A DNA stretch of 34,386 nt from Halobacteriales archaeon QS_8_69_73. Lineage in GTDB: Archaea; Halobacteriota; Halobacteria; Halobacteriales; Haloarculaceae. The notes below the pieces were generated by a model. It was not told the origin of the DNA, did no database searches, and was given only the letters and a program-made list of their open reading frames with translations. The position numbers and the translations under genes are program-made. Shown piece by piece: positions 456-26,139 of this stretch (positions are counted from its first letter, which is position 1; each line of letters begins with the position of its first letter). The stretch lies in assembly GCA_003022945.1 (NCBI GenBank), contig PXRZ01000077.1:1-34386 (forward strand), read 5' to 3'.

Positions 456-1513
456 GTTATCACCAGTTCCTCTTCGATTTCCTCGACGTCCAACCCCGCC
501 TCGCGGCCGCGGGCGACCGCACGGACGTTCTCGACCTCCCGCTCCTTGGCGAGAACGTACGAGAGCACCGGACACACCGACATCGGGTAGCGGTTCGAGA
601 GCTTCGCCGAGTACTCCAGCAGCGCCGCGTCCAGGGCGTGCTCGAACCCCATGAGGGCGTCGGCCTCGGCCAGTTCGTCCAGCGCCGCCGACAGCTCCTC
701 GCCGTAGCTGCTCTCGCGGATGCGCTCGACCAGCTGGTCGACGTTGGCCGCCAGCTGACGGAGCTCCTCGGCTCGGAACAGCCCCCCGCCCTCGATGTGG
801 TACTCGCCGGGGTCGATGTCGGCGCCGCTCCGGGCGATCCTGAGGGCGTTGCGGAGGTTCCGGAAGTCGATCTCGGCCTCCAGGAACTCCCGGTACAGTG
901 CCCGCGGGGAGTCCGGCTCCGGGGTCCCGATGTCGTCCATCAGGTGGGCGTAGAACGCACGGTCGACGGCGTTTTCCAGCGGTACCAGCACGTCCTCGCT
1001 CTCGAAGTCCGGCATGGCGGCCTCCAGCGGGTCGCCGAAGATGGTGTTCGAAAGCGTCTCGACCACCTCCTCCATACGGCCGGCCTCGACCAGCCGGTCG
1101 AGCAGCCGATCGGAGAACTCGCCGGTCCGGATGAGGTCGTCGTCGACGTCCGAGGCGTCGGCGTCGGTGTACACCCCCCGGATGACCGTCTTGACGTTCC
1201 AGGCGTCGAACTTCCGGAGGTAGTTGGCGATGTAGCCGTACAGCGACCCCTCGGCCCACGTCAGCAGATCGTCGAAGCGTTTCGCGAGGTTGCGGTTCAG
1301 CGCGTACTCGACGAGGTCGACCCCCGAGTGCCGCGTCCCGAGGGCGTTCATCTCCGTCTCGTACTCGGTTTCCTCCATGAACCGGGCGATCTCGCCGGGG
1401 TCCATTCGGACTAGCTTCCGGTAGTCGTCCTCGTCGAAGAGCCGAGCCTTCTGGGCCCGGACCCGGGCGGTTACGTACTCGTAGTTCGGGCTTCGTTCGG
1501 TGTTGGCGCTCAT
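452..1513 (-). CDS. atpC: A-type ATP synthase subunit C
   Basis: A 353-residue protein starting MSANTERSPNYEYVTARVRA, followed by the all-helical body of the C/d-type subunit. Visible segments are YANYLRKFDAWNVKTVIRG-like helices around residues 90-115 and EAEIDFRNLRNALRIARSG near residue 215. Subunit C forms the socket that links the central stalk to the membrane c-ring. The length is normal for haloarchaea and there is no sign of damage, unlike the neighbouring atpE. It overlaps atpF by 4 nt downstream and atpE by 4 nt upstream, so the genes are tightly coupled. Confidence 0.95.
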   Translation of the reverse strand: MSANTERSPNYEYVTARVRAQKARLFDEDDYRKLVRMDPGEIARFMEETEYETEMNALGTRHSGVDLVEYALNRNLAKRFDDLLTWAEGSLYGYIANYLRKFDAWNVKTVIRGVYTDADASDVDDDLIRTGEFSDRLLDRLVEAGRMEEVVETLSNTIFGDPLEAAMPDFESEDVLVPLENAVDRAFYAHLMDDIGTPEPDSPRALYREFLEAEIDFRNLRNALRIARSGADIDPGEYHIEGGGLFRAEELRQLAANVDQLVERIRESSYGEELSAALDELAEADALMGFEHALDAALLEYSAKLSNRYPMSVCPVLSYVLAKEREVENVRAVARGREAGLDVEEIEEELVIT

Positions 1514-2007
1514 TCTTCGAAGAGGCGCGTGCTGATCTCGCGCAGGTTCTCCTCCCAGACGTCCTCGAGCACCGAGTCGAAGGTGTTGTTCACCCGGACG
1601 CGGGACTCGTCGGACTCGACGGCGACGCCGCCGAGACAGTCGACGGAATCGCCGACCGCGTATCCCTCGAAGTCGCCGACGACCGTCTCCAGCAGGTCGG
1701 CGTCGTCCTCGTGGCCGTGGACCCGGACCGTCTCCTCGGCGGGGAACTCCTCGGCGGCGGCCGCCAGCAGCGTCCGGGTCAGCTCCTCGCGCTCGTCGCC
1801 CTCGAGTTTCGCGCCGGACAGCTCCTGTTCGCGCTCCTGCTCGATCCGGCGTTCGGCCTCCTCGCGGGCCTCCCGGTGGATGCGCTCGGCGTCGGCCTCG
1901 GCGTCCGCGACGATCTCCTCGGCGCGGCTCTCGCCGTCGGTTCGGATCTCTTCTGCACGCGCGCGGGCTTCCTCCCGGATGTCTTCTACGACTGTCTCAA
2001 GACTCAT
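1510..2007 (-). CDS. atpE: A-type ATP synthase subunit E with internal deletion
   Basis: The protein is 165 residues. The N-terminal coiled coil (MSLETVVEDIREEARARAEE, rich in Glu/Arg/Ala) and the C-terminal domain (GGVAVESDESRVRVNNTFDS, VLEDVWEENLREISTRLFEE) are clearly subunit E of the peripheral stalk. Haloarchaeal homologues are about 194 residues as I recall them. Here SGAKLE joins directly to GDEREELTRTLL, so about 28-29 residues that normally link coiled coil and head (an Arg/Glu-rich helix) are missing, in frame. The junction lies at about 1799-1806 and carries CTCGAG, a likely microhomology. Such a loss would shorten the stator unless subunit H compensates. A local assembly deletion is the main alternative. 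Confidence 0.9.
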   Translation of the reverse strand: MSLETVVEDIREEARARAEEIRTDGESRAEEIVADAEADAERIHREAREEAERRIEQEREQELSGAKLEGDEREELTRTLLAAAAEEFPAEETVRVHGHEDDADLLETVVGDFEGYAVGDSVDCLGGVAVESDESRVRVNNTFDSVLEDVWEENLREISTRLFEE

Positions 2008-2028
2008 GATGGGGGGAGTGGGGTGACG

Positions 2029-2277
2029 CTAAACCAGGAAAATGGTGACGAACGCGATGATGATCAGCGTCTCGGGCAGCGCCGTAAAGATGAGTCCAGG
2101 GACGAACATGTCGTCGTCCTCGGCGACGGCACCGATGGCCGCCGACCCGATGCCACGCTGGGCGTAGCCGGTGCCCAACGCGCCGAGCCCGACGGCGAGG
2201 GCCGCCGCGGCCGGCCCCGAGATTCCACCGCTACTGTCCTGCAGTACCACGCTGGCGAGTTCGAGTGTTTCCATCAT
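2029..2277 (-). CDS. atpK: A-type ATP synthase proteolipid subunit K (c)
   Basis: An 82-residue (or 81, since two ATGs follow each other) very hydrophobic protein: a short N-terminus, a Gly/Ala-rich helix at about 21-40, a polar loop with EDDD at 53-56, and a second helix at 57-82. The ion-binding carboxylate is Glu69 within FTALPETLIII. This is the single-hairpin c-ring subunit that translocates ions. It lies between atpE and atpI, separated from atpI by 160 nt that contain a TATA-like box, so it may have its own promoter for higher expression, as c-rings need many copies. Confidence 0.95.
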   Translation of the reverse strand: MMETLELASVVLQDSSGGISGPAAAALAVGLGALGTGYAQRGIGSAAIGAVAEDDDMFVPGLIFTALPETLIIIAFVTIFLV

Positions 2278-2332
2278 AGTTTGTAGGTCCCGTTAGCTGC
2301 GTTCCGGACGGTTCGAACTGCTTTCCTAGTAG

Positions 2333-2340
2333 CTATAAAA
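2333..2340 (-). promoter_or_regulatory. TATA-like box upstream of atpK
   Basis: The minus strand reads TTTTATAG here, an AT-rich island in GC-rich DNA. It lies 56-60 nt upstream of the atpK start, so a transcript would begin around 2305-2310 with a short leader. It sits in the 160 nt gap between atpI and atpK, which holds no gene. An internal operon promoter is inferred, not shown. Confidence 0.45.
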
Positions 2341-2437
2341 CTTCTCAAATACGACGACCGAGAGGACCGATTACGGGCGGTACAGGCTGATAGGTGTGCC
2401 ACAGCGGCGGGCGGGCGGACGCCGGAGAGCGCTACTC

Positions 2438-4639
2438 TTACTCTTCGGCGGTGAACTGCCGCTCGTGGCCGAACGGCGAGTAGTCGTCGCCGCCGGCCTC
2501 GTAGAACTTCGAGAAGAACTCGAAGTACTCGAGCCGGATGCTCTGAATGCCGGCGGAGGTGATGCCGAGGATCATCACCACGATGTGGCCGACGACGAGT
2601 ACCACGATGCCCGCCAGCAGCGCGCCGGCGCCGCCGTGGATCAGCCCGGGGAACATCACCTCCTCGGCCCCGGCGGGCGCCTTGGCTTTGGTGAGCAGGA
2701 AGTGGAACCCCTCGGCGTCCCGGTAGGCGCCGAAGAACAGCAGGTTGACCGCGAAGGCCATCCCCGCCTTGGCCAGCAGCACCGCCGCGATACGCAGATA
2801 CGACAGGACGTGCGCCAACACCTGGTGGATCTCGACGAGCTCGTAGGTCGGCCCGAGCGCCAGCAGCGCGATACCGACCGCGGTCATCGCGACGCCGACG
2901 TAGCCGACGGTCGGCGAGAAGCCACTGAAGCCGAGCGCGAAGGCCGCCCCCTCGCCGCTGCTGAACACCTCGAAGATGAGGGCGGGCTTCGTCTCCCGGC
3001 CGATGGTGCTGAACACGAACAGCCACAGGCCGTTCAGCGCCAGTAGCCAGCCGCCGACCTCCTCCAGCGCCGCCCGGAGGCCGTGGAAGCTGTACTCCTC
3101 GACGAACTCGAAGGTCCACGCGAGGTTGAGATGGAAGACGCCGAACAGCGCCGTGATGACGAACCACGCCTCCGCCCACTCGGTGCTGTCCGGCGACAGC
3201 CCCTTCTCGATGATCGGACTGCCGTAGACGGTCTCGACGACCGGCAGCGTGTCGAGGTGAAGTCCGAACACCTCCCCGTAGAGGACACCGAAGACCAGCG
3301 TCACGATCCCGGCCGCCGCGGTGATCTTCCCGAGGTTGTCGAAGGTCTCGGAGTCGAAGTTCCGCATCAGGTAGTAGCCGATACCGGCGTAGACGGCGCC
3401 GTAGCCGATGTCCCCGATCATGAAGCCGAACATGAGCGGGAAGGTGAGGAAGACGACGAACGTCGGGTCGATCTCGGTGTACTTCGGCTTGCCGACCGCT
3501 TGGGTCAGCAGCTGGAACGGCCGGACCCCGGCGGGGTTGTCCTGCTCGACCGGCGGCTCGGTATTGCCCATCGGGCGGTCGTCGGTCGCGTAGCCGCCGT
3601 CGGAGCGGACCTCACCGGCGCCGTCGGTCGCGGCGACGGGGTCGCCGACGCCCGGCTCGGGGGCCTCCCGCCCGGTCTCGCCGCTTCCGCCGAGGGAGCC
3701 GTCGCGGTAGTCGGCCCGCTCCAGCTCCTCGACCTCGACGTGGTCGCCGACCGACGACCCCAGCGCCTCCGCGAGGTCGGTGAACCGCTCGCTCGGAATC
3801 CACCCCTCCGAGACGAAGGCGTTGTCCGTCGTCGCGAAGCTCAGCGGCGCCTCCCGCTTCTGAGCCTCGATGGAGAGCTGCTCCTCGGCGGCCAGCAGGA
3901 AGTCCGCGACCTCCTCTTTCAGCTCGTCGAGCTCGTTCTCGACGGTCTCGAGCTCCGACTCGAGCTCGTCGCGGCGCGAGCGCAGCTCCTCGACGTACGC
4001 CTCGGGGCTCGTCGCCCCGCCGGCGTCGTCGAGCTCCGGCACTTCGTACGCGGCGAACGGCGTCCCGACCAGCATGTCCTCGAGATCGACCGCGGGCGCG
4101 ACGAACATCGCGACGTACTCGTCGGCCTCGAACAGCTCGAAGGCGTCGACGGCGTCGGCGTCGGCGAGTGCCGCCCGCAGCTCGTCGGCGTCGCCCTCGC
4201 CGACGGCCGTCGACAGCGACTCGTAGCCCGACAGCAGGTCGATGTCGATGCCGAGCTCGACGAACGGGCGGGCCGTCTCGATCCGTTCGTCGACCGTCCG
4301 CAGCTCCTCTTCCAGCGCCGAGCGGCGGTCGTCGAGTTCGTTGACCGCCGTCCGGATGCGCTCGATCTCCTCGTCGAGTTCGTCGTCTTCGAGAATGCGG
4401 ACGCGGCCGGCGTCGTCGGCGTCGACCCCGAGGGTGCTTTCCAGCGCCCGGACGGTGACGAGCTTCTGAGAGACCTCCTCGGCGCCCTCGGCCGTATCGC
4501 CGGGCTCGAACCCCTCCCAGGAGCCGTCGTAGTCGGTGACGTGCAGCAGATTCAGGTCGTGGACCGTCTCGATGGCCTCGTCCATCACGCGCTTGGATCC
4601 CGTCACCGAGACCCGGCTCATCCGCTCAGGTCTGAGCAT
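2438..4639 (-). CDS. atpI: A-type ATP synthase subunit I (a-type stator)
   Basis: A 733-residue protein. Residues 1-305 form the cytoplasmic arm with two coiled-coil stretches (about 84-125 and 214-260). Residues 310-375 are a Gly/Asp/Glu-rich linker. From about 390 to 695 there are seven or eight membrane segments. The conserved Arg needed for ion passage is R616 in HVLSYLRIAAVLLAK. The start MLRPERMSRV overlaps atpH by 14 nt. With the c-ring (atpK) it forms the ion path, and the arm binds the E/H peripheral stalks. The length is within the usual range. The low-complexity linker is longer than I would expect and is the only unusual part. Confidence 0.95.
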   Translation of the reverse strand: MLRPERMSRVSVTGSKRVMDEAIETVHDLNLLHVTDYDGSWEGFEPGDTAEGAEEVSQKLVTVRALESTLGVDADDAGRVRILEDDELDEEIERIRTAVNELDDRRSALEEELRTVDERIETARPFVELGIDIDLLSGYESLSTAVGEGDADELRAALADADAVDAFELFEADEYVAMFVAPAVDLEDMLVGTPFAAYEVPELDDAGGATSPEAYVEELRSRRDELESELETVENELDELKEEVADFLLAAEEQLSIEAQKREAPLSFATTDNAFVSEGWIPSERFTDLAEALGSSVGDHVEVEELERADYRDGSLGGSGETGREAPEPGVGDPVAATDGAGEVRSDGGYATDDRPMGNTEPPVEQDNPAGVRPFQLLTQAVGKPKYTEIDPTFVVFLTFPLMFGFMIGDIGYGAVYAGIGYYLMRNFDSETFDNLGKITAAAGIVTLVFGVLYGEVFGLHLDTLPVVETVYGSPIIEKGLSPDSTEWAEAWFVITALFGVFHLNLAWTFEFVEEYSFHGLRAALEEVGGWLLALNGLWLFVFSTIGRETKPALIFEVFSSGEGAAFALGFSGFSPTVGYVGVAMTAVGIALLALGPTYELVEIHQVLAHVLSYLRIAAVLLAKAGMAFAVNLLFFGAYRDAEGFHFLLTKAKAPAGAEEVMFPGLIHGGAGALLAGIVVLVVGHIVVMILGITSAGIQSIRLEYFEFFSKFYEAGGDDYSPFGHERQFTAEE

Positions 4640-4958
4640 CCACCGCCTCCGTGAACAGCTCGACGACGTGGTCGATGGTCTCCTCGCGGTGCTCCTCGGC
4701 GCGGGCCTCCAGCGTCTCCCGTTCCTGGCGGCCCTCCTCGAGGATGGCCTCCCGCTCGGCGTCGATCTCCTCGCGGGCCTCGGCGAGCCGCTCGTCGACC
4801 AGCTCGTCGGCCTCCTCGCGGGCCTCCTGACGGATGCGGTCGGCCTCCTCGCGGGCCTCGGCGACGTGCTCCTCGCGGGCCGTCTTCGCGTCGGCGACGA
4901 TCTCGTCGGCCTCGCGTTCGGCCTCCTTGACTCGTTCGAGAACCTCCGGCCTGGCCAT
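4626..4958 (-). CDS. atpH: A-type ATP synthase subunit H (peripheral stalk)
   Basis: A 110-residue protein, almost entirely a Glu/Ala/Arg heptad coiled coil (MARPEVLERVKEAEREADE onward), ending in a short FTEAVDAQT tail. This is the H (AhaH-like) subunit that pairs with subunit E to form the peripheral stalk. It is the first gene of the operon. The coiled coil has an approximate 11-residue periodicity, as expected for the right-handed stalk. It is intact, in contrast to its partner AtpE. Confidence 0.9.
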   Translation of the reverse strand: MARPEVLERVKEAEREADEIVADAKTAREEHVAEAREEADRIRQEAREEADELVDERLAEAREEIDAEREAILEEGRQERETLEARAEEHREETIDHVVELFTEAVDAQT

Positions 4959-4987
4959 GATTATATCGTCCTAATCTTTGGAAAGCG

Positions 4988-4996
4988 GCTATTTGG
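4988..4996 (-). promoter_or_regulatory. Possible TATA box of the ATP synthase operon
   Basis: The minus strand reads CCAAATAGC about 30-38 nt upstream of the atpH ATG, in a small AT-rich patch (4959-5000). The position would give a leader of only a few nucleotides. The match to a TATA box is weak. Confidence 0.35.
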
Positions 4997-5095
4997 TAGT
5001 TGCGGAAGCGACCGCGGCCACGTTTAATCAATCGAGAGCTGGCCGATCGGCCGACGTCGGACGGGAGTTCGAACGGGGCCGACCGCTCGCGCGGC

Positions 5096-5251: not shown

Positions 5252-5286
5252 ATTCGAGCGACGGCTCCGCGAGCCGTCGTTCGAAT
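5252..5286. repeat. Long inverted repeat (hairpin)
   Basis: The arms 5252-5267 and 5271-5286 are 16 nt each and complementary except for one G-T pair. The loop is CGC. This is the longest stem in the region and lies directly after the tandem repeat. Confidence 0.85.
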
Positions 5287-5340
5287 CGTATCCTCGGACT
5301 CCGTTCTGCGGTGTCCTCGCGCGGCACCGTCGCGCGGGTT

Positions 5341-5684: not shown

Positions 5685-6210
5685 ATGACGGGAGAGATGC
5701 CGTACAGGGACCCGGAGACGGTCGAGCTGTCGGCGTGAGCGCCACGTCGTGGAGTTGCTCGAAGGGTACCGGGTGGCCGGGCTCCCGGTCGTCCACGTCA
5801 GACACGAGACCGTCGAGGCGGGGTCGCCGTTCCACCCGAACCGGCCGGGCGTCGCGTTCAAGCCCGCGGCGGCGCCAGCCGACGACGAGCCCGTCGTCAC
5901 CGAGCGCGGCGGCGGCGCCTTCCTTGGGTCGGACCTCGAGAGCCGCCTCCAGGCAGCCGGCGTCGAACGCCCCGTCCTGGTCGGGTTCACGACCGACCGC
6001 CGCGTCTCGACGGCGGCCCGGATCGCCTCGGCGCTCGGCTTCGATCCCTACGTCGTCGACGACGCGACGGTCGCGTTCGACCGCGAGCTCGACGGCACGC
6101 GTTACGTCGCGGAGCAGACCCACCGGGTCGCGCTGGCGCAACTGTCCGGCGCCGCCGCGACGGTCGTCGAGGCGGCGACGCTGCTGGCGGCCCTCGAGCG
6201 GCGGACGTAG
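5685..6210 (+). pseudogene. Isochorismatase-like cysteine hydrolase, broken
   Basis: From about 5737 to 6210 the frame reads RERHVVELLEGYR, GLPVVHVRHETVEAGSPFHP, VERPVLVGFTTDRRVSTAARI, and DDATVAFDRELDG. This is the second half of an isochorismatase-family hydrolase, although the usual catalytic Cys after the GxxTxxxV strand is replaced by Asp (TTDRRVS). The first part, with the VVVDMQ strand and catalytic Asp, is absent. An ATG at 5685 opens MTGEMPYRDPETVELSA in another frame and hits TGA at 5736-5738. The simplest reading is one gene that lost an internal block around 5733-5737, shifting the frame. A short product from GTG 5749 (153 aa) would lack the active site. Confidence 0.7.
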
Positions 6211-6320: not shown

Positions 6321-7671
6321 ATGAAGGGTACAATCTCCGACGTTTCCGTTCTGTGCGTCGACGACGACGCGGAGCTGGTGTCGCTGCTCGCGGGCGGCCT
6401 CGAGCGGGAAAGCGACCGTCTCGACGTGACGACCGCCACCAACGTCGACGCCGCCCTCGAGACGTACCGTGCGACCGGCGTTGACTGCATCGTCAGTGAC
6501 TATCACATGCCGGCCCGGACCGGTGTCGAGCTCCTCGAGGTGGTCCGGGCCCGCGACCCGAAGCTCCCGTTCGTCATGTACACCCGGACCGGCAGCGAGG
6601 CCGTCGCCAGCGAGAGCATCCGCGCCGGCGTCACCGACTACGTCGTCCGGCGGGCGACCGACGAACAGTACGGGCTGCTGACGGAGCGGATCCTCACGCA
6701 CGTCGACAGCCGCCGGAGCGAGCGGCGAGCGAGCCGGACGAACCGGACGCTCCGGGCGCTGAGCGCCGCGGCCGACGAAGTCCTGTTCATGTTCTCGGCC
6801 GACTGGTCGGAGCTGCAGTTCATCAACGACGCCTACGAGACGGTGTTCGGCGGCTCCGTCGACCGCCTGCGGGCGGCGCCGAAGTCGTTCCTGACGCACG
6901 TTTATCCCGAGGACGTCGACCGGGTGACCGACGCCATGGAGCGGGTGTCGGGTGGCCATCCCCAGCAGATGGAGTTCCGGATCGACCGCTCGGCCGACAT
7001 TCGCATCTGGGTGGAGTCGCGGTGCAAGCCGGTCCGCGACGATTCGGGCGACATCGAGGCCGTCGCCGGGTTCACGCGGGAGGTGACCGAGCGGAAACAC
7101 CGCGAACAGGAGCTGGAGGACCGCAACGAGACGCTCGATCAGTTCGCCGCGACCGTCGCCCACGACCTCCGGAATCCGCTCGCGGTCGCCGACGCGAAGC
7201 TGAAGCTGGCGCGAGCCGAGACCGACAATGAGCACATCGACGACGGCATCGAGGCCGTCGACCGGATGAGCCGACTCATCGACGAACTGCTCGCCCTCGC
7301 AAAGGAGGGCATCGCCATCGACGAGCGCAGCCGGGTCGACCTCCGGGAGGTCGTCGAGGCCAGCATCGAAGACGTCATCATGACCGACGCCACCTGCACC
7401 GTCGAGGACACCGCACGGATTTCCTGTGACCCCCCGCGGCTCCGGGAGGTGCTCACGAACCTCTTCCGCAACTCCATCGACCACGCCGGCGGCTCCGTCG
7501 ACGTCACCGTCGGGCTGCTGGACGACGGCTTCTACCTCGAGGACGACGGCACCGGCATCCCTGTTCATCATCGAACAGATCGTCGACGCACACGACTGGA
7601 CCATCGAGGCCGTCGCCGGTGCCGACGGCGGCGCCCGGTTCGAGGTCACCGGCGTCGACCTTGCGGTCTGA
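6321..7671 (+). pseudogene. Response-regulator/PAS histidine kinase, frameshifted in the ATPase domain
   Basis: Residues 1-125 are a receiver domain (VLCVDDDAE acidic pocket, phospho-acceptor Asp in CIVSDYHMP, Thr in MYTRTGS). Residues 140-265 are a PAS domain ending FTREVTERK. Then comes HisKA with the H-box VAHDLRNPL at about residue 280, followed by the HATPase N-box NLFRNSIDH and the G1 box LEDDGTGIP. At 7559-7561 the frame breaks. The expected lid and G2 segment (about 20-25 residues) are gone, and the tail LFIIEQIVDAHDWTIEAVAG continues in the next frame to the stop at 7671. Without a shift the first frame runs on as nonsense to 7745. The ATP lid is lost, so kinase activity is unlikely. 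The family is common in haloarchaea, and its signal is unknown. Confidence 0.85.
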
Positions 7672-8888: not shown

Positions 8889-9529
8889 ATGTTTCCGACC
8901 TTCGAGGTCGTCCCGGCGGTCGACATGCAGGACGGCGAAGTGGTCCAGCTGGTCGGCGGCGAGCGGGACACCGGCCGGCGGTACGGCGACCCGGTCGCGG
9001 CCGCCGAGCGGTGGGTCGACGCCGGTGCCGAGACGCTGCATCTCGTCGACCTCGACGGCGCCTTCGAGGGCGACCGCGCGGCGACGCCCGCCGGCTGCTG
9101 GAGGCCGGCGTCGACCGGGTCATCCTCGGCACCGCCGCCGTCGAGAACCCCGCCATCGTCGACGCGGTGACCGGGGAGTTCCCCGACGGCGTGATGGTGA
9201 GTCTCGACGCCAGCGACGGCGAGGTGGTCGTCCAGGGGTGGACGGAAGGCACCGGTCTCGACCCCGCCGAGGCCGCCGCCCGCTACGAGGCGGCCGGCGC
9301 CGCGGCGGTACTGTTCACCGACGTCGACGTCGAGGGCCGCATGGACGGCGTCCGCCGGGAGACTGTCGAGCGCGTCGTCGACGCCGTCGACGTCCCCGTC
9401 GTCGCCTCGGGCGGCGTCGCCTCTCTCGCGGACCTCCGGGCGCTGCGGGAGACCGGCGCCGCCGCCGCCGTCGTCGGGACGGCGCTGTACGAGGGGGCAT
9501 TCACCCTCGCGGAGGCGAACGACGTTTGA
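8889..9529 (+). pseudogene. hisA: HisA (phosphoribosylformimino-AICAR isomerase), internal deletion with frameshift
   Basis: The first frame from ATG 8889 gives MFPTFEVVPAVDMQDGEVVQ, with catalytic Asp12, through LVDLDGAFEGDRA at 9080. The sequence then jumps, in another frame, to DARRLLEAGVDRVILGTAAV and continues normally to SGGVASLADLRAL and the stop at 9529. The usual piece between them, with the second half-barrel strand PVQLGGGIR, is missing. About 76 or 79 nt are gone (the length is 1 modulo 3), with the junction at 9081-9083. HisA catalyses the fourth step of histidine synthesis in a TIM barrel; this copy would give a truncated barrel. A sequencing or assembly deletion could equally explain it. 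Confidence 0.92.
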
Positions 9530-9988: not shown

Positions 9989-10502
9989 ATGACGGACCGG
10001 ACGGCGGCGGTCAGACGCGAGACGGCCGAAACGGAAGTCGAGGTGACGCTGGGGCTCGACGGCGACGGTGACGGCACCGTCGACACCGGGGTCGGCTTCT
10101 TCGACCACATGCTCGAGGCCGTCGCCACCCACGGGCTGTTCGACCTGACGGTTCGCTGCGACGGCGACCTGGAGATCGACGACCACCACACCGTCGAGGA
10201 CGTCGGCATCGCCCTCGGCGAGGCGCTGGCGGAGGCGCTGGACGACGGACGCGGCATCGTCCGCTACGCCCGACGGCGGCTTCTCCCAGCCCTCGGTGGG
10301 CGAGTTCACGAGCGACATGGCCAGACACTTCGCGGAGTCGCTGGCGACGAACGCCGGGCTGACGCTACACATCGCCGTCGAGGGCGACAACGCCCACCAC
10401 GAGGTCGAGGCGCTGTTCAAGGCGCTCGCGCGGGCCCTCGACGACGCCACGCGGATCGACGACCGACGCGGCGATACGCCGAGCACGAAGGGCGAACTAT
10501 GA
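9989..10502 (+). pseudogene. hisB: HisB (imidazoleglycerol-phosphate dehydratase), internal deletion with frameshift
   Basis: The first frame runs from ATG 9989 through [33 protein letters not shown], the metal-binding [17 protein letters not shown] and GIVRYA at 10270. In another frame the protein resumes with [39 protein letters not shown] and a normal end at 10502. The piece between (usually the RRVPLDEA strand and the DVSGRPY segment) is missing: about 71 or 74 nt, 2 modulo 3. Both metal-binding His motifs survive, but on different frames. HisB makes imidazole-acetol phosphate in histidine synthesis. With hisA also broken, the pathway would be dead if the sequence is right. Confidence 0.92.
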
Positions 10503-10910
10503 CATCCTCTCCGGCGTAAACAGCGAGGGAGTTCGTCCCTCGGACAGTCGGCCGGAGCCCGACGACAGCGTGGCGTCGGAGACGCCACGAGCAGACGGCA
10601 CAAGCGCCGTCGACGCCCGGGGGTTCCCGGCGCTCGGGGTCGGACTGGGCCCCGACGCCGACGGAGGCACAATTCCGCCGCGTCAGCGTACTCCGGTTCG
10701 TGATCGGTACTTCGGATCCTTCGTGTAATGTGGGGCATCGGGCGCCCCGGCAGAGACGCGGTACCCGCTCGCACAGCGCTCGACACGTCCGCCGTGTCGG
10801 GCTCAAGGAAGCCCGTCCAGGAACTCGCGAGGGCGTCGATCTCCCGTCGACGTACCGCGGTGAAACGAATCCGGAACAGTAGCGATACAAGAGTGGAACC
10901 GAAGCCGGAC
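10503..10910. other. Gene-free region left of the TRAP operon
   Basis: About 400 nt with no credible gene. The first 113 nt are the hairpin-rich repeat shared with 14110-14230. The rest (10616-10910) is mixed, with GC falling gradually toward the TRAP operon. The TRAP operon converges on hisB here, so transcripts from both sides should end in this stretch, and the hairpins could act in termination. Confidence 0.6.
10541..10615 (+). repeat. Hairpin-rich direct repeat, left copy
   Basis: Bases 10541-10568 match 14110-14137 at 26 of 28 positions. Bases 10557-10615 match 14171-14230 with only three substitutions and one 1-nt gap over about 60 nt. The copy contains perfect hairpins at 10571-10587 (TGGCGTC arms, loop GGA) and 10594-10611 (GACGGC arms), and a 7-bp one just before it at 10524-10542 (CGAGGGA arms). 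It is in direct orientation to the right copy. Confidence 0.85.
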
Positions 10911-12203
10911 TCAGGCGACGGTGTACCAGAGCATGACGCTGAGCCAGACCACCACCAGTCCGACCCAGTGCCATTTCGCTGCCTTCGCCACCTCCATATA
11001 ATTGATATTCGAGATTCCACTAATGATGTATAGGTTCAGGCCGTAGGGGGGCGTGATGAACCCGATCGATGCGCCCATCATGAAGATGATCCCCCATTCG
11101 ACGGGCGACCATCCGAGGGCGGCCGCCGCCCCGGCCAGTATCGGGGCCGTGAGCAGGAGATTCGGGGTCGCATCCAACAGTGATCCGGCCAGCAGCATGA
11201 TCACGGTCATGACGAGAACGATCAATGCGGGATGTCCCAACGAGATGATACCGTCGGAGATCACCTCTTGAAGACCGAGATCGGAGAGACTCTGCTGGAT
11301 CAGAATCGAGGTAACGACCATCGGGAGGATGATCCCGATCAGCAGGATCGATGAGTAGCAGGCGCGGACGATCTGATCGACCGACGTGATCTGTCGGGAC
11401 CCGATCGCTGCAACCAGAATATACACCACCGCAACGGCGGCCGATTCGCTCGGAGTGAAGATTCCCAGGAAGATACCGCCGAAGAGGAGGACGATCGTCC
11501 CGAGACCTACCTTCGCGTACCACGTCCTGATGAGGATCTGTTTGATGTCGACACCGAAATCATCGGTAACACCGTAGTCATTCCGATAGGAGATGAACGT
11601 ATTGATCGCCAACAGCGCGAGTAGCATCGCCAGTCCGGGGATAGCTCCCGCCAAGAACAGTTCGAAAATCGAGACACCGAAGGCCGCACCGTAGATGATC
11701 AGGAGAATGCTCGGGGGAATGATCGCACCCAAGACGCCGCCAGAGGCGATCGTTGCGGCGGCGTAATCGTCCTCGTACCCCTCCTCACAGAGCGGCGAAT
11801 AAAGCGCAGAGCCCACGGAAGCCGTCGTCGCTGCGTTGGAGCCGGTGATCGCGGAGAAGATTCCGGCAGTACCGACCGCCGTGTTGCCCGTCACACCGGG
11901 GATCCAGCCGATGATCTCCCGGGTGAATTCGATGAGATTGTCGGCGATTCCAGCCTCACGTATCAGGTCCCCCACCAGAATGAAGAGCGGAATCGCGGTG
12001 AACGAGAAGCTCTGCAGGACATCGTAGTGGTTCTGGGACATATTGATCAACGGGAAGCTGTCGAACCCGACGTGATAGCCGAGGGCCCACAGCCCGAAGA
12101 CCAGATAAATCGGTATACCCAATACGAAGGCGATGACCGACAGGAGCGTGATTCCGATCAGGAAGTTCGTCGGGGTTACCAACAAGGGTGAAAGCGAGTT
12201 CAT
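10911..12203 (-). CDS. dctM: TRAP transporter large permease subunit
   Basis: A 430-residue, extremely hydrophobic protein with about 12 predicted membrane helices. It carries family landmarks such as FTAIPLFILVGDLIREAG, GTAGIFSAITGSNAATTASV, GGVLGAIIPPSILLIIYG and a C-terminal GASIGFITPPYGLNLYII. DctM forms the channel-like transport unit of tripartite ATP-independent periplasmic transporters, driven by an ion gradient (Na+ in known cases). It is the last gene of dctP-Q-M, overlapping dctQ by 4 nt. The GC content is visibly lower than in the surrounding genes. Substrate is unknown. Confidence 0.95.
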   Translation of the reverse strand: MNSLSPLLVTPTNFLIGITLLSVIAFVLGIPIYLVFGLWALGYHVGFDSFPLINMSQNHYDVLQSFSFTAIPLFILVGDLIREAGIADNLIEFTREIIGWIPGVTGNTAVGTAGIFSAITGSNAATTASVGSALYSPLCEEGYEDDYAAATIASGGVLGAIIPPSILLIIYGAAFGVSIFELFLAGAIPGLAMLLALLAINTFISYRNDYGVTDDFGVDIKQILIRTWYAKVGLGTIVLLFGGIFLGIFTPSESAAVAVVYILVAAIGSRQITSVDQIVRACYSSILLIGIILPMVVTSILIQQSLSDLGLQEVISDGIISLGHPALIVLVMTVIMLLAGSLLDATPNLLLTAPILAGAAAALGWSPVEWGIIFMMGASIGFITPPYGLNLYIISGISNINYMEVAKAAKWHWVGLVVVWLSVMLWYTVA

Positions 12204-12727
12204 TTCGAGATATCCGAGGTCGGCGTGATGTCTTCGCCGTTATCGTACCTTCGTCTGATCCGGAGTATCTGCTGGGTTGCTCTGAGTACGATCAGGGTCA
12301 TTCCGACCGGGATAGCCAGATACGCCGTCCACTGTGGAATCGGCGTTCCAAGGACCGGTCGCCCGGTAGCCAGACGTCGCCGAACCAGTTCGATCGAATA
12401 GTAACCGACGATCGCGGCAAACGACACCCACGTCACGAAATCGATGTACCGCAGAACGTAGTTCGCCCTGTTCGAAAGGTTGTTTCTGGCCAGTGAAAAC
12501 CGGAAATGCGATTCGTGGCGGATCGCCCAAGCCGCCGCCACCCAGACCATCCACGTGAACAAAAAGAGTGTCCCGTTCAGTGTGAACGACGGAGGGTTCT
12601 CGAACGTCACCCGTTGGACCACAGTATAAAAGATCAAGAGGGTGTACAGCGCGATCAGTACGATCGCGACGTATCCTTCGAAGTTTCTTTCGAGCTTCGC
12701 CAGCGTCTTGTTGTTAGAGGTTGACAT
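12200..12727 (-). CDS. dctQ: TRAP transporter small permease subunit
   Basis: The start chosen is ATG 12727, giving 175 residues that begin MSTSNNKTLAKLERNFEG. The longer frame upstream would enter dctP and is rejected. Four membrane helices are visible: YVAIVLIALYTLLIFY, the TLFLFTWMVWVAAAW segment, VSFAAIVGYYSIELV, and TAYLAIPVGMTLIVL. This is the DctQ family pattern, with the WMVWVAAAWAIR signature. The stop overlaps the dctM start (ATGA), and dctP ends 22 nt upstream. In the complex DctQ helps the binding protein dock to DctM. Base composition matches the rest of the operon. Confidence 0.9.
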   Translation of the reverse strand: MSTSNNKTLAKLERNFEGYVAIVLIALYTLLIFYTVVQRVTFENPPSFTLNGTLFLFTWMVWVAAAWAIRHESHFRFSLARNNLSNRANYVLRYIDFVTWVSFAAIVGYYSIELVRRRLATGRPVLGTPIPQWTAYLAIPVGMTLIVLRATQQILRIRRRYDNGEDITPTSDISK

Positions 12728-12749
12728 TTTAGTACGTAGTTTTCCGGTA

Positions 12750-14006
12750 TTACATCTCGGAGAGATACTCGTCCCACCACGCATCGACGGTGAAGTCGCT
12801 GTGACTGGATGGAACGGAATTCTCCCGAGCCGTGTCGGCGAGAAACTCGTGGAACGCCTCACCGTCGACGCCGATCTGATTCGCCGAATCGATGATGTTC
12901 GAGTACAGGTCTAAGTTATCTTCATACCCGATGGCATCCTCCCACTGTTGCATCTGGTCGTCATCCAGGTAATTGTACTCCAGATCGTGTTCGACGGTGC
13001 ACGAAGACTCGGGAGGATCATCGGTGTACAGCCCGAGGCGTTGCTGGTGAATTTCCTCCACGTTCATCCGAACGAGGTCCTCGTACACGGACTTCGATAC
13101 GTCCGCGAGCAGCGAGAGATTCTCATCGGAGAGGCTCTTGAGCCACTCGACGTTAGCCCACTTCGTGTCGTTATGGATCGTCCACTTGTTGATGATGCTT
13201 GAACTGAGTGCCTCGGCGTTGTTTCCTCCGTACGCACAGAGCGGCGAGGCAGCAGCTTCGGCTCCATCGACCGTTCCGGTACGGAGCCCCTGGAGCGCGT
13301 CGGCCCACGCCAAAGAGACCGGGTTCATGCCGAGTTCGTCGAGCGCGATCCCGGAGACCTGGCTTGCGGTCCGCCGACAGTCCATATCTTCTACATCCTC
13401 CGGGAGCTGATGTGTGTAATCGGTGCTTTCGGCCCGGTCGATACCGATGTGGATCGCTCGGAGTGCGGGTGCATGGTACCAAAGCGGAACGACACCGTAC
13501 TCCCGGGCGAGGGGAACCCAGAACTGTTCGTAGGTCTCCGCCTGCGTTAGGGTGTGTGCCAACGAAATCTCGCTCGGGAACGTGTACGGAATCATCCAAA
13601 TGTCGTTCACCGGGAAGCTCGCACTCGAATTACCGATCGAGGCACTACCGATCTCGACGGTCCGGTTCCGGACGCTCTCCGGACACTCCAGTTCACCGCA
13701 AATCTGCCCTTCGGCGACGTTTTCGACCTGGATACGCCCGTCGCTTTGCTCTTCGATTCGGCGTTCGAACTCCCAGTGGCCGGAGGGCTGTGCGCCTTCC
13801 CAGCCACTTCCGGGAGGCGACATCACGCCACCGATGGTGAACTGCAGTTCAGCATCATCACTACCGCCGTTACCGTTGCCGCCGTCACCGTTCCCACCGT
13901 CACCGTTCCCGCTTTCGGCACATCCAGCAACGGTGATGGCTCCGGCAGCACCGGCGGCTCCCTTGAGAACCGTACGTCTGGACGATAGTGTGCGGTCCGT
14001 TGTCAC
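12750..14006 (-). CDS. dctP: TRAP transporter substrate-binding lipoprotein
   Basis: A 418-residue protein with a twin-arginine signal (R10-R11 in SSRRTVLKGAAGAAGA) and a lipobox ending at C29 (VAGC). A Gly/Asn/Asp spacer tethers the domain outside the cell. The DctP fold follows: SIGNSSASFPVNDIWMIPY, HAPALRAIHIGIDRA, and MNPVSLAWADALQGLRTGTV DGAEA, where DctP proteins usually have a short TGTVDGxE motif. The start is GTG 14006; an ATG two bases upstream is out of frame. A TATA-like box at 14031-14038 fits a leaderless transcript. The ligand cannot be read from sequence. The TAT signal shows adaptation to haloarchaeal export, so any transfer is not very recent. Confidence 0.93.
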   Translation of the reverse strand: MTTDRTLSSRRTVLKGAAGAAGAITVAGCAESGNGDGGNGDGGNGNGGSDDAELQFTIGGVMSPPGSGWEGAQPSGHWEFERRIEEQSDGRIQVENVAEGQICGELECPESVRNRTVEIGSASIGNSSASFPVNDIWMIPYTFPSEISLAHTLTQAETYEQFWVPLAREYGVVPLWYHAPALRAIHIGIDRAESTDYTHQLPEDVEDMDCRRTASQVSGIALDELGMNPVSLAWADALQGLRTGTVDGAEAAASPLCAYGGNNAEALSSSIINKWTIHNDTKWANVEWLKSLSDENLSLLADVSKSVYEDLVRMNVEEIHQQRLGLYTDDPPESSCTVEHDLEYNYLDDDQMQQWEDAIGYEDNLDLYSNIIDSANQIGVDGEAFHEFLADTARENSVPSSHSDFTVDAWWDEYLSEM

Positions 14007-14030
14007 ATAAATTAATATCTGGCCGTATGA

Positions 14031-14038
14031 GATAAATT
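14031..14038 (-). promoter_or_regulatory. TATA-like box of the TRAP operon
   Basis: On the minus strand AATTTATC stands 25-32 nt upstream of the GTG start at 14006. The surrounding 14007-14060 is the most AT-rich patch of the window. Placement supports the GTG start and a leaderless transcript. Confidence 0.6.
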
Positions 14039-14109
14039 TTCCCCATATATACTACGCTCAAGAAAAGTATGGCGTCCTCCGCGCGGTAAACGGAAGGGCG
14101 GAGCTCACT

Positions 14110-14230
14110 CGGACAGTCGGACGAAGCCCGACGACAGGGAGGGACTACGTCCCTCAGGCAGTCGGGCAGTGCCCGACGACAGCGTGGCGTCGGGGACGCA
14201 ACGAGCAGACGGCGCGAAGCGCCGTCGACG
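14110..14230 (+). repeat. Hairpin-rich direct repeat, right copy
   Basis: Contains 14110-14137 and 14171-14230, both homologous to the left copy (10541-10615), with an extra 33 nt between the two blocks holding one more hairpin. Perfect stems: 14139-14155 (GAGGGAC arms, loop TAC), 14161-14177 (GTCGGGC arms, loop AGT), 14187-14199 (GCGTC arms) and 14208-14226 (GACGGCGC arms, loop GAA). The extra block looks like an internal duplication of GCCCGACGACAG. No gene lies in 14007-14310. Confidence 0.85.
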
Positions 14231-18200: not shown

Positions 18201-18204
18201 GCGG

Positions 18205-21322: not shown

Positions 21323-21693
21323 GCGTCGTGTTCGACACGAACGCGCTGATGGCGCCCGTCGAGGTCGACGTCCGGGTGTTCGAGGAGCTGGACCGGCTGC
21401 TCGGGGAGTACGACCCGGTCGTCCCGCGGGCGGTGCTGGCGGAACTGGCGGAGCTGGCCGGCGGCAACGGCGAGGCGGCGACGGCCGCGAGCGTCGGACT
21501 GGACCTCGCGCGCCGGGAGTGCGACATCATCGAGCACGACGCCGACTACGCCGACGACGCGGTAGTGGAACTCGGCCGCACGGCCGACTACGCGGTCACC
21601 AGCGACATGCCGCTCAGAGAGCGGCTGCTGGCGGCGGACGTTCCCGTAATTAGTTTACGCAACGGAACCAAACTCGGACTCACCCAACCATAG
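21319..21693 (+). CDS. PIN-domain protein (FCF1/VapC9-like)
   Basis: A 124-residue protein starting [20 protein letters not shown]. The acidic PIN centre is visible as Asp6 in the DTNALM motif, Glu in [12 protein letters not shown], an Asp pair in ADDAVVELG and Asp in [16 protein letters not shown] domains are Mg-dependent ribonucleases. This type is fixed next to aIF2-gamma in euryarchaea and is likelier a ribosome- or rRNA-processing endonuclease than a toxin, since there is no antitoxin gene beside it. The overlap with aIF2-gamma (ATGA) and the 1-nt gap to rpoE1 support one operon. Confidence 0.9.
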
Positions 21694-21694
21694 C

Positions 21695-22264
21695 ATGTAC
21701 AAACGGGCACGACTCACGGATACGGTCGAGGTACCGCCGGAGCACCTCGCGGAGGTGTCGCCGGGGCTTGTCAAGCGACTGCTGCAGGACAAACTCGAGG
21801 GACAGATGGACGAGGACATCGGTAGCGTCGTCTCGGTGACGGAGGTCCACGACATCGGCGACGGGGCGGTACTGCCGAACCGACCGGGCGTCTACTACGA
21901 GGCGGAGTTCGACGCGGTCACCTTCGACCCACAGATGCAGGAGGTCGTCGACGGCGAGGTCGTCGAGGTGGTCAACTTCGGCGCCTTCGTCGGTATCGGC
22001 CCGGTCGACGGGCTGCTGCACGTCTCGCAGATCTCCGACGAGTACCTCGCCTACGACGAGGAAAACCAGCAGCTGGCCTCCCGGGACTCCAACCGCGTAT
22101 TGAGCGTCGGCGACGCCGTCCGGGCTCGCATCGTCACCAAGAGCATCGACGAGCGGAACCCCCGGGACTCGAAGATCGGGCTCACCGCCAAACAGCCCGG
22201 CCTCGGCAAGCACGGCTGGCTCGAGACGGAACGACGGCGCCGCGAGGCGCAGGCGGGTGATTAG
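21695..22264 (+). CDS. rpoE1: RNA polymerase subunit E' (Rpb7-like)
   Basis: A 189-residue protein. The N-terminal tip domain starts MYKRARLTDTVEVPPEHLAE. From about residue 82 an S1/OB domain follows, with EVVNFGAFVGIGPVDGLLHV, QISDEYLAYD and SKIGLTAKQPGLGKHGW at its end. It forms the stalk of archaeal RNA polymerase with RpoF, helps open the promoter and binds emerging RNA. Its stop is directly followed by the spt4 ATG, the conserved euryarchaeal order. Confidence 0.96.
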   Translation: MYKRARLTDTVEVPPEHLAEVSPGLVKRLLQDKLEGQMDEDIGSVVSVTEVHDIGDGAVLPNRPGVYYEAEFDAVTFDPQMQEVVDGEVVEVVNFGAFVGIGPVDGLLHVSQISDEYLAYDEENQQLASRDSNRVLSVGDAVRARIVTKSIDERNPRDSKIGLTAKQPGLGKHGWLETERRRREAQAGD

Positions 22265-22462
22265 ATGGCCGACCGACTCGTCTGCCGCGACTGTCACCGT
22301 GTGCTCGAGGTCAACGACGACGAGCAGTGTCCGGCCTGTGGGTCGAACTCGCTGAGCGAGGACTGGGCCGGCTACGTCGTCATCGCCCACCCCGAATCGA
22401 GCGAGATCGCCGAGGAGATGGAGGTCGCCGAGCCGGGCCGCTACGCGCTGAAGGTCCGGTAG
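22265..22462 (+). CDS. spt4: Transcription elongation factor Spt4 (RpoE'')
   Basis: A 65-residue zinc protein with C7-x2-C10 (VCRDC) and C22-x2-C25 (QCPACG), and the C-terminal DWAGYVVIAHPESSEIAEEM that packs against Spt5. Spt4 with Spt5 closes the RNA polymerase clamp and raises processivity. It starts on the base after the rpoE1 stop, and the next gene begins 1 nt after its own stop, so these genes are co-translated. Confidence 0.96.
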   Translation: MADRLVCRDCHRVLEVNDDEQCPACGSNSLSEDWAGYVVIAHPESSEIAEEMEVAEPGRYALKVR

Positions 22463-22463
22463 G

Positions 22464-22961
22464 ATGGCCGGCGCCGACCCCGACCCCGAGGTCGTCGCCG
22501 AACTCCCCGACGCCCTCCGAGGGGAGCTGAAGAAGCCACTGGGGCCGGTGTACACCGACGCCGAGACGCTGCTGGCGGACGCCGACGGCCCCATTGTCGC
22601 CGTCGGCGACATCGTCACCTACCACCTGCTGGAGGCCGACGCCCGACCCGACGCCGCCCTGGTGGACGGCCGAACGGAGCGAGAGCGCGTCGACCGCGAG
22701 GTCCGCGAGGCGGTCGCCGGGTTCGACGACCGTCTCGAGGCCGTGAACCCGGCGGCGACCCTCTCGACGACGCTGCTCGAGGCGCTCGGCGAGGCCGTCC
22801 GCCGTCCCGGCTCGGTCGTCGTCGCCGTCGACGGCGAGGAGGACCTCGCCGCGCTGCCGGCGGTGCTCGTCGCCCCCGACGGCGCCGCCGTCGTCTACGG
22901 CCAGCCCGGCGAGGGAATGGTCGGCGACTACGACCGGCTGACGGCCGTTCTCGGGGTCTGA
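22464..22961 (+). CDS. GTP-dependent dephospho-CoA kinase
   Basis: A 165-residue protein of the DUF359 family, known in Thermococcus as the archaeal GTP-dependent dephospho-CoA kinase, the last step of coenzyme A synthesis. Landmarks: KPLGPVYTDAETLLADADGP, IVAVGDIVTYHLLEAD, then the Asp/Arg-rich VDGRTERERVDREVREAV, and VVVAVDGEEDLAALPAVLVA near the end. In other haloarchaea I expect S24e directly downstream; here it is almost 2.9 kb away. The gene itself is intact. Confidence 0.9.
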   Translation: MAGADPDPEVVAELPDALRGELKKPLGPVYTDAETLLADADGPIVAVGDIVTYHLLEADARPDAALVDGRTERERVDREVREAVAGFDDRLEAVNPAATLSTTLLEALGEAVRRPGSVVVAVDGEEDLAALPAVLVAPDGAAVVYGQPGEGMVGDYDRLTAVLGV

Positions 22962-23097
22962 GCCGCCGCGGGCGTGTCCCGGTCCGGCCCGCCGACGTAC
23001 AGTTTCGTCCACTCGTGACCAGATATGTGTGGTCGTTCTTACGTTAATTTCAGTAGGAACGGTTTTGTACGATGGTACCGGGGATCCGAATTGTACT

Positions 23098-25219
23098 ATG
23101 TTCGATTACGACGAAGACGGTGTGTCGCGGCGGTCGATACTGCGGTCGGCGGCGGCCGGGACGGCCGGGATGTCGCTGGTCGGGTCGGCGAGCGGCCAGG
23201 AGGTCGTCCCGGACGACCCGGCGCCGGGCCCGAACGTGACGTTCTTCGGCTACGACTGCGACCCGGACCGCGATGAGTTCTACACCGAGGTGTCCCGGGA
23301 GCCGACGCACGACTTCGGCGAGAGCGAGGTGATCGAACTCGACAGCGGCCGGGACGGCGAGAAGATACAGCTGGCGGTCACATGGCCGGCGCCGCTCGAC
23401 GACGCCGAACCGAGCGACGACTACCCGGTCATCCTGCGGGCGACGCCGTACGTCAGCGACCTGCGGGGCTACACGGTCCGGGACTGCATCCGGACCCGGC
23501 GGCTGGCGGAGAACTACATCCAGCAGGGATACGCCGTCGCCGCGGTGGCCGTCCGCGGGACGGGCGGCTCCGGCGGCTGCATGGAACTCATGGGCCCCAA
23601 CGAGCAGGCCGACATCGACCAGGCGGTGACGCGGCTCGGCAAGGACTCCAGGTCCAACGGTAACGTCGCCATCATCGGCCGTTCCTACGACGGGACGACG
23701 CCGTGGATGCCGGCCCGGAAGGGCAACCCGTACCTGGCGACGGTGGTGCCGTTCAGCGGCGTCCCGGACATCCACGAGCTGATGTACAAGCGCGGCTCTC
23801 CCGAGACCCGTGGCTACGCGATTCTCAACGGGCTGTACTACATCATCTCGCTGGCCGAACACGGCCCGAACTCCGGGACGGGCCTGCGGACGTACCTCTC
23901 GCGGGCGTCCTGTCCGGACAACCTACGACGGCAGCGTCCTGATGGTCCACGGCCTAGTCGACTGGAACGTCGACCCCTCGCAGGTGTACCCCTGGACGAA
24001 GTCCCTGCGGGCGGCCGGCATCAAGACCCACGTCTACTTCGGACAGTTCGACCACCGCTACCCCGACGACGGCCGCATCAAGAACGACGACGACGAGCTG
24101 ACGGCGGCGTTCAACCCCGACTGGGCGGACTTCCTGCTGAAGTGGTTCGAAAGCGAGCTGAAGGGTCGTGACCCCGCGGCGATCGACGACGTGATTCCGG
24201 ACGAGACGGACGATTCGACCCCGACGGACCCCTTCGCGGCGCGGGTCAACGCCCAGAGCTCGGACGGCAACTGGTATACGGCCGACGAGTGGCCGCCCGA
24301 GGAGGCCGAGCCGACGAAGCTGTACTTCGGGACGGACGGCGACCTGCGAACGGAGCCGAGCGAGGAGACCGGCCAGGAGACCGTCTACGTCGACCCCACC
24401 CAGTCGTACAACCCACAGCCCGGCTGTGACGCCTGCGTCACCGTCGAGTCCGAGCCGTTCGACGAGGACCTCCGCTTTGCGGGCGAACCGGTCGTGGAGG
24501 TCGCCGTGACGCCCACCGGCCCGACCAACCACCTCACGGCGCACGTCTACGCGGTCGACGAGAACGGCGACACCGACCGGCTCGGCTGGGGTCAGGTCGA
24601 CCTCCGGTACGCCCAGGACCGCGACGACGCCGGCACGGTCGTCCCCGGCGAGGAACTCGACGTCCGGCTGCCCGTCGAGCCGCTCGACGCGGCCGTCGAG
24701 ACGGGTCAGCGGCTCGCGGTCGTCCTCAGCCAGGGCACCGCGGCCGGCCGGGTCGAGTCGCCGACGCCAACGCCGGTCGAAGTCGAGACCGGCGGCGACA
24801 ACGGCCTGGTGCTGCGCGCCTGGGGCGCTGACCTGCCGTCGCCGGAGACGGTTCTCGCCGGCACCCGCTCGACGGGCGCCTCCGCCTATACCGCCGGTCA
24901 GACCAGCCGCCAGCTGGTCGAGGTCAGCACGCCCGAGACCGGCGCGGTCGAGGACGTCGTCCCTGCCTCCTGGATGGTCTCCGTCGAGGACAATCCCGAC
25001 GTCACCGAGGTCCGCGAAGAGGACGGCGTCAAGCGTGTCGTCTTCGCCGAGAAGGCGGCCGCCGGCGAGACGACCATCTACGAGTACTTCGCCGAGGTTC
25101 CGACGAGCGCCGACGGGACTGGCTACTACCAGTTCGGCCCGGCGGAGATTCTGCTCGAGGAGCGGACCGAGGTCCCCGGCACCGGCGGCGAGGCGTTCGT
25201 CGTCGGCGCCGAGACCTGA
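23098..25219 (+). pseudogene. Secreted CocE/Xaa-Pro peptidase-type hydrolase, internal deletion with frameshift
   Basis: The first frame starts at ATG 23098 with a twin-arginine signal (R11-R12 in VSRRSILRSAAAGTAG). An alpha/beta-hydrolase follows, with the nucleophile Ser at about 196 in IIGRSYDGTTPW. At about 23921, after RASCPDN, the protein resumes in another frame with TYDGSVLMVHGLVDWNVDPS and GQFDHRYPDDGRIKN, giving the acid and His of the triad, and then the C-terminal jelly-roll (GEELDVRLPVEPLDAAVETG) to 25219. A block whose length is 2 modulo 3 is missing between them. The CocE/X-prolyl dipeptidase family cuts N-terminal dipeptides or esters. Intact, it would be an extracellular peptidase. 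Unshifted, the first frame runs to 24171. Confidence 0.85.
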
Positions 25220-25332
25220 GCCGGCCGCTCCGCCGTCGGGTTCGGCTCGATCGTTACCCCTGCGAGACGTATCGCGTCGTACCGTCGGCTGGCCTGTTCG
25301 ACGAAATTCACGCGTGCTCCAGTCGAATGAAG

Positions 25333-25340
25333 ATTTTTAC
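25333..25340 (+). promoter_or_regulatory. TATA-like box of the small membrane protein
   Basis: ATTTTTAC stands 23-30 nt upstream of ATG 25363. It would lie inside the coding region if ATG 25327 were used, so it argues for the later start. Confidence 0.5.
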
Positions 25341-25362
25341 TGTTCGGGATTTAGCCCGAGTC

Positions 25363-25608
25363 ATGCAACTGAGACTCCGGGGTGAGATAGAATCCGCGTT
25401 CAGATACACGTTCGCCACCACGATGGTATTCCTGTTCGCATTCGATATAAGTGAGGTGTACCTCGATCCGCTCGTCACCTACAACACGTTCGTATATGAG
25501 GTATTGGTCGAGACTCTCATCGTCGTCGTGAGTATCTACGTATGGTCCGTCGTCCTCGGGAATGCGTACAATCTGACGGCGTCTTCGCGGCGCCCGGAGG
25601 GTGGGTGA
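25363..25608 (+). CDS. Small two-span membrane protein, unknown
   Basis: From ATG 25363 the product is 81 residues: a short basic N-terminus (MQLRLRGEIESAFRYTF), two hydrophobic helices (TTMVFLFAFDISEVYL and VYEVLVETLIVVVSIYVWSV) and a short charged tail. An in-frame ATG at 25327 would add 12 residues, but the TATA-like box fits the later start. I recognise no family. GC is lower than in the ribosomal cluster around it, so it may have come in with the CocE gene. The 240 nt between it and S24e hold nothing I can identify. Confidence 0.55.
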   Translation: MQLRLRGEIESAFRYTFATTMVFLFAFDISEVYLDPLVTYNTFVYEVLVETLIVVVSIYVWSVVLGNAYNLTASSRRPEGG

Positions 25609-25848
25609 AATCGCCGGCCGGACGGCTCGATATCCCGCAGAGCCACCCGTCGGGTGTCGCCGGAACCTGGGACCGGTGCCTTCGTGATGAGATGGAGCGG
25701 TACGGCCGACGCCCTACCGGCCCGAGAGTAGTCCGCTCCGGGGTGACCGTGACCGAGGGCGACGCCGTCGTCGGCGCCGAGACCCGGCCGAACCGCTCGC
25801 TTCGAAATTCTTTTCAGTGTTTCGCGGGAACCAGCGGGTAACGTAACC

Positions 25849-26139
25849 ATGGACGTCGAAATCATCGAGGAGGACGAGAACCCGATGCTGCACCGGACGG
25901 ACGTCCGGTTTCAGCTGACCCACGAGGAGGCGACGCCGTCCCGGCTGTCGGTGCGAGACTCGCTGGCCGCGACTATGAACAAGGACGCCGACGAGGTCGT
26001 CGTCCACGAGCTCGACACCAAATACGGGATGCGGAAGACGATCGGCTACGCGAAGGTCTACGACAGCGCCGAGGACGCGATGGACGTCGAGCAGGAGCAC
26101 ATGCTCGATGGCAGATGCGGCTACACCGAATTCGAGTAG
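25849..26139 (+). CDS. rps24e: Ribosomal protein S24e fused to the end of S27ae
   Basis: Residues 1-86 are S24e (MDVEIIEEDENPMLHRTDVR, ATPSRLSVRDSLAA, LDTKYGMRKTIGYAKVYDS). After EQEHMLDG the last residues are RCGYTEFE, which is the C-terminal end of S27ae, the zinc-finger ribosomal protein normally encoded next. The normal S24e tail and the start and first three cysteines of S27ae are therefore missing, probably by a deletion joined at 26108-26120, where ATGGCA may be the old S27ae start. S24e and S27ae both belong to the small subunit. Loss of S27ae would be hard to tolerate, so another copy or an assembly error should be suspected. Confidence 0.9.
   Translation: MDVEIIEEDENPMLHRTDVRFQLTHEEATPSRLSVRDSLAATMNKDADEVVVHELDTKYGMRKTIGYAKVYDSAEDAMDVEQEHMLDGRCGYTEFE

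Follow-up and report, generated by a model that had tools for sequence, protein, structure and literature searches.

The window (the whole stretch of DNA analysed, 34,386 nucleotides) is one complete contig, C75, of a haloarchaeal draft genome (G000) that comprises 2,633,186 bases in 79 contigs and is rated 76.3% complete. Among the matches listed for its histidyl-tRNA synthetase, the relatives that carry a name are all haloarchaea. Its closest relative among the genomes compared is G010, with a DNA identity of about 94% over long stretches. Alignment of the window to contigs C24 and C28 of G010 shows that seven window genes each lack one internal block, of 68 to 155 nt (Table 1). These losses had been proposed in an initial annotation of the window, and the junctions lie within a few bases of the positions given there. 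The frame effects are also as it described them: five frameshifts, an in-frame loss in atpE, and a fusion. The fusion results from the 155-nt loss, which takes the end of rps24e together with most of rps27ae and joins the remnants. An eighth loss, absent from the initial annotation, lies in a DUF359-family gene. At all of these sites G010 has open genes of the expected families.

Table 1. Junctions of missing blocks, sized against G010, and the contig-end overlap of the window
Feature	Position in window	Strand	Missing block	Remarks
atpE (A-type ATP synthase subunit E), flush join	1799..1801	-	84 nt, in frame	slide 1; Pfam vATP-synt_E
Isochorismatase-family gene, flush join	5736..5737	+	71 nt, frameshift	Pfam PF00857 on G010 gene
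Receiver/PAS/HisKA/HATPase kinase gene, flush join	7560..7562	+	68 nt, frameshift	Pfam on G010 gene
hisA, flush join	9078..9082	+	76 nt, frameshift	slide 3; His_biosynth on G010 gene
hisB, flush join	10270..10271	+	74 nt, frameshift	IGPD
DUF359-family gene	22921..22922	+	60 nt, in frame	eighth loss
CocE/S15 peptidase gene, flush join	23922..23923	+	104 nt, frameshift	Peptidase_S15 on G010 gene
rps24e/rps27ae, flush join	26109..26110	+	155 nt	Ribosomal_S24e, Ribosomal_S27 on G010 genes
Contig-end overlap	1..99	.		1-99 identical to end of C16; 1-85 identical to end of C19

Several other features of the window were noted. A difference of 65–69 nt at 28497–28510 lies in diverged sequence and was left out of the count. 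In a cupin-like gene (28567–28926) the reading frame changes near 28670, where the window differs from G010 by a small indel; this break is of a different kind from the flush joins. At 30272–30277, G010 carries about 510 more bases between hisS and the next gene. Sequence matching this extra stretch occurs elsewhere in the draft (C44:48377 and C21:19116), which suggests a dispersed element in G010 rather than a loss from the window. A DctP–DctQ–DctM (TRAP) transporter operon at 10615–14075 has a G+C content of 0.58 compared with 0.69, and is flanked by two copies of a dispersed repeat of 80 bases (10520–10599 and 14134–14213, 88% identical). The operon is absent from the compared region of G010, where the sequences on its two sides map to a single overlapping site, and to judge from this arrangement it looks like an insertion between the repeat copies. 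The GC-rich repeat (10495–10600 and 14065–14213) is itself dispersed. It accounts for 25 of the 28 match rows listed, 23 of them on contigs of the draft beyond the self-match of the pair, and copies are found in G010 too.

Beyond the window, 755 kb of the draft (29%, window included) was compared with 1,205 kb of G010, giving an alignment of 387 kb in 22 chains. An indel was counted only if both of its 40-base flanks were at least 85% identical. The 181 candidate gaps comprised 47 excluded as complex, 93 losses in the draft and 41 losses in G010; after the flank rule, 69 and 20 of these losses remained, respectively. Of the eight window losses, this count leaves out those in hisA and the DUF359-family gene; it takes in one loss from contig C16, at a G010 gene that the atpE of the window covers as well. 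Clean losses of 60–160 bp number 44 in the draft and 3 in G010 over the same 387 kb (binomial p 2.5e-10). Smaller counts were obtained at 20–30 bp (4 versus 1), at 30–60 bp (11 versus 4) and at 160–300 bp (3 versus 1, the three in the draft being of 202–209 bp). Losses longer than 300 bp, 7 in the draft versus 11 in G010, are balanced, as expected from natural gain and loss. Most of the excess falls in a single size class, and in one of the two genomes, and the largest of the 59 clean losses of 20–160 bp in the draft is 155 bp.

These figures correspond to a density of about 114 losses per Mb aligned; extrapolation to the whole draft gives about 300. It had been argued from the window that so many losses point to a common cause, and their number is indeed far above chance. 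The comparison with the closest relative and the count beyond the window, both suggested at the time, show the losses to be widespread in the sampled part of the draft.

The junctions themselves carry little homology. Short shared words had been pointed out at some of them, but the eight window junctions slide by 0–3 bases only, which is not beyond chance. Among the 59 losses of 20–160 bp, slide is zero in 35 (0.59, compared with 0.50 for random blocks). The mean slide of 1.34, compared with 0.88 (sd 0.14) at random, is raised by five losses that slide 7–11 bases; these five may be real deletions. The microhomology test that had been proposed thus reveals no general junction repeats. With respect to length modulo 3, the 44 losses divide 15/14/15 and are frame-blind. 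The possibility that the lost blocks are unusual in base composition was considered and dropped, their GC content being 0.708 compared with 0.709 in random blocks. The junction data argue against microhomology repair, repeat slippage or an overlap-merging assembler as a general cause.

One reading of the losses is that they are real deletions, reflecting a tendency, throughout the lineage, to lose short blocks that lie between microhomologies. The five of 59 losses with 7–11 nt of homology are what such a process would leave, but the blunt majority is not, and a tendency of the lineage sits badly with only 3 losses in the closest relative against 44. Nor is it easily squared with a density of this order when several indispensable genes are among those hit, as set out below. 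We regard this explanation as highly improbable.

To identify the genes affected, one candidate G010 reading frame was chosen per block by codon composition for the 44 losses. Outside the window there are 38 loss sites, 30 of which were covered by 29 scanned proteins, with hisA as a thirtieth; an NCBIfam match at 1e-10 was absent for 8 of the 29 scanned proteins. The genes broken outside the window include those for ribosomal protein uL16, seryl-tRNA synthetase (SerRS), GatE, the replication factor C large subunit (RfcL), UvrA and LeuC, as well as a tRNA dimethyltransferase, a fumarase/aspartase-family enzyme and an F420 ligase. If real, the losses in uL16, SerRS, GatE, RfcL, UvrA and LeuC, and those in AtpE, HisA, HisB and S24e/S27ae within the window, are lethal. 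That no cell survives the joint loss of uL16, SerRS and ATP synthase subunit E is well established.

The broken genes nevertheless evolve as coding sequence on both sides of the junctions, which again speaks against real deletion between microhomologies. In the seven broken window genes, substitutions relative to G010 fall at third codon positions in 73 of 116 cases upstream of the junctions and in 85 of 139 downstream, counted in the original frame. The corresponding figure for four intact control genes is 116 of 164; a further control gene, at 26143, was misaligned and is excluded from it. In hisB the substitutions at codon positions 1, 2 and 3 number 4, 0 and 12. The codon count of S24e was not used, this gene being misaligned across the loss. 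The substitution pattern indicates that the broken window genes are still under selection on both sides of the junctions.

The same pattern bears on the idea that the genes are decaying as pseudogenes in a population that is reduced, host-dependent or dying. The small size of the draft and its rating of 76% complete might be expected of such a population, but each broken gene has only 0–2 single-base gaps relative to G010, and both the third-position excess downstream of the junctions and the distribution in hisB speak against decay. Decay therefore appears extremely improbable. The most exotic possibility, and the one given least credence here, is a living haloarchaeal population whose essential genes carry hundreds of tolerated deletions, short, blunt and indifferent to frame, with rescue by intact copies in co-resident strains or by repair of a novel kind at the level of RNA or protein.

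Other genomes of the genus retain the missing sequence where it could be aligned. For hisB, arithmetic on match coordinates gives exactly 74 more bases in 18 of the 18 genomes with a real match; 19 were searched, and the nineteenth, G011, gave a match of 45 bases only. By the same arithmetic the near-closed genome G005, which is in 2 contigs, retains about 84 nt in atpE, 74 in hisB, 105 in the peptidase gene and 162 in S24e/S27ae, while G008 (near-closed, 1 contig) keeps 84, 74 and 216 nt in atpE, hisB and S24e/S27ae, respectively. For hisA, gapped matches suggest 62 extra nucleotides in G005 and 82 in G008. The G010 count, hisB in 18 of 18 genomes, and the further relatives where aligned all confine the loss to one assembly. 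In another genome, G018, two contigs (C125 and C221) both cover the atpE region and match the window differently, possibly reflecting two strains in one bin.

Contig ends of the draft share exact sequence. Exact repeats within the 755 kb sample reach 99 bases at most, and both repeats of this length lie at contig ends, one of them including the start of the window (Table 1). Since exact repeats reach 101 bases in the G010 sample, the 99-base limit in the draft alone is only suggestive. The overlaps resemble those expected of a de Bruijn assembly (k = 100), some of them being of 85 bases, not 99. A k of 100 is the default maximum of IDBA-UD, and can be used in other assemblers too.

The draft holds the atpE region in a second version, on the 3,099-bp contig C16. 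This version is 95–97% identical to G010, and is either a strain variant or bin contamination. In the atpE of C16 the 84-nt block missing from the window is present, while another 73 nt, found in the window, are missing. The stretch C16:1373–1457 equals window 1716–1800, exactly 85 bases, and this match is bounded on one side by the C16 junction and on the other, within the one-base slide, by the window junction. A third contig, C19, overlaps the end of C16 and the end of the window by exactly 85 bases each. A junction thus coincides with a contig end at atpE, the one window junction for which this could be shown. From these coincidences we read the window atpE junction as a contig end, and the source material as probably containing two strains. 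When two G010 regions were used as queries for second copies of the missing blocks in the draft, the best 40 candidates for each yielded only the atpE of C16. Among the matches listed, the others over missing blocks are about 70–74% identical, and are probably related genes.

The arrangement at atpE could also be explained by collapse of reads or of the assembly graph without scaffolding, whereby stretches identical between co-resident strains are kept in the contig of one strain only. That C16 carries the atpE block, and that an exact 85-base share is bounded by both junctions, is what this predicts. The flanks of the losses should then be unusually similar to G010, which they are not: the first mismatch beside the junctions lies at a median of 21 bases, compared with 20 at random sites (40 of the 44 losses used). 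Because flank similarity is no greater than that of random sites, shared stretches as a cause of contig breaks find support at atpE alone.

A further signature is provided by runs of N. The 755 kb sample of the draft contains 12 such runs, of 19–204 bases. Six could be placed on G010; of the others, one has non-matching flanks and five lack G010 sequence in the sample. The six placed runs, of 204, 59, 19, 46, 86 and 157 N, correspond to true distances of 347, 300, 160, 203, 171 and 307 bp, so that the N counts are too small by 143, 241, 141, 157, 85 and 150 bp, respectively. With an estimator about 150 bp too low, most real gaps shorter than about 150 bp would be read as zero or less. The smallest true distance across an N run, 160 bp, adjoins the largest unmarked loss in the class, 155 bp, the losses of 202–209 bp being exceptions. 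In the reciprocal check, none of the flanks of the six N runs in the G010 sample was found in the sample of the draft.

The size limit and the shortfall in the N runs point to gap estimates based on read pairs, and this makes collapse without scaffolding very unlikely as the whole explanation. Such collapse may be the reason for the contig breaks, and hence part of the best explanation. The shortfall, together with the contig-end overlap, is also left unexplained by microhomology-mediated deletion. The contig boundary at the atpE of C16 and the shortfall in the N runs point to scaffolding as the source of the losses. We consider it almost certain, on the sequence comparisons described here, that the missing blocks are dropped scaffold gaps, an assembly error, and not losses in the cell. 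Both causes offered at first, a systematic assembly or read-collapse error and a lineage-wide tendency to microhomology deletion, can be revisited in this light: the assembly error is retained with strong support, likely in the form of dropped scaffold gaps rather than read collapse, and the deletion tendency is set aside on the counts in the two genomes, the blunt junctions and the hitting of needed genes.

Dropping of scaffold gaps would proceed in several steps. Contigs would have broken at branches or where coverage was thin, in source material that would hold closely related strains, as the second version of the atpE locus illustrates. Read pairs would then have linked the right neighbours, since order and orientation agree with G010. 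The size of each gap would have been estimated about 150 bp too short, as seen for the six N runs. Where the estimate was positive, a run of N would be written; where it was zero or negative, the two contigs would be set end to end and as much as about 155 bp of sequence would vanish unmarked, as the size limit suggests. The genes themselves would be intact in the cell.

The result is a warning, not a discovery: a draft can hold about one unmarked loss of 60–160 bp per 9 kb (44 in 387 kb). Since the losses are unmarked, such a draft is not a safe basis for calling genes absent, decayed to pseudogenes or fused, and damage of this kind may account for part of its low completeness score. Signs that need no reads are available for any scaffolded draft, namely one-sided losses of 60–160 bp relative to a near relative, blunt junctions, and a size limit of the losses that meets the shortest N gap.

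A naive estimate of gap size from read pairs is reportedly too short where a gap is spanned only by long fragments, a bias ascribed to Sahlin et al. 2012; here the shortfall is about 150 bp, as measured on six gaps only. Metagenomes of Atacama salt crusts (sites Qs, Qh and Sw) are described as sequenced in HiSeq 100-base pairs from fragments of 600–1000 bp and assembled with IDBA_UD (PMC5532433). Local assembly errors are suspected to be especially prominent in IDBA-UD assemblies, according to Chen et al. 2020 (PMC7111523), and the errors described there are likewise unsupported joins that damage protein-coding genes. The errors treated in section 9 of that text are N gaps, N placed where sequences in fact overlap, and consensus that no reads support; the section does not describe contigs joined flush at the cost of a block, with an upper size that follows from the gap estimate. 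Microhomology-mediated deletion, as a known process, shares with the present losses clean junctions with a missing middle, and differs in that here there is no general microhomology, essentially one genome is affected, and essential genes are hit.
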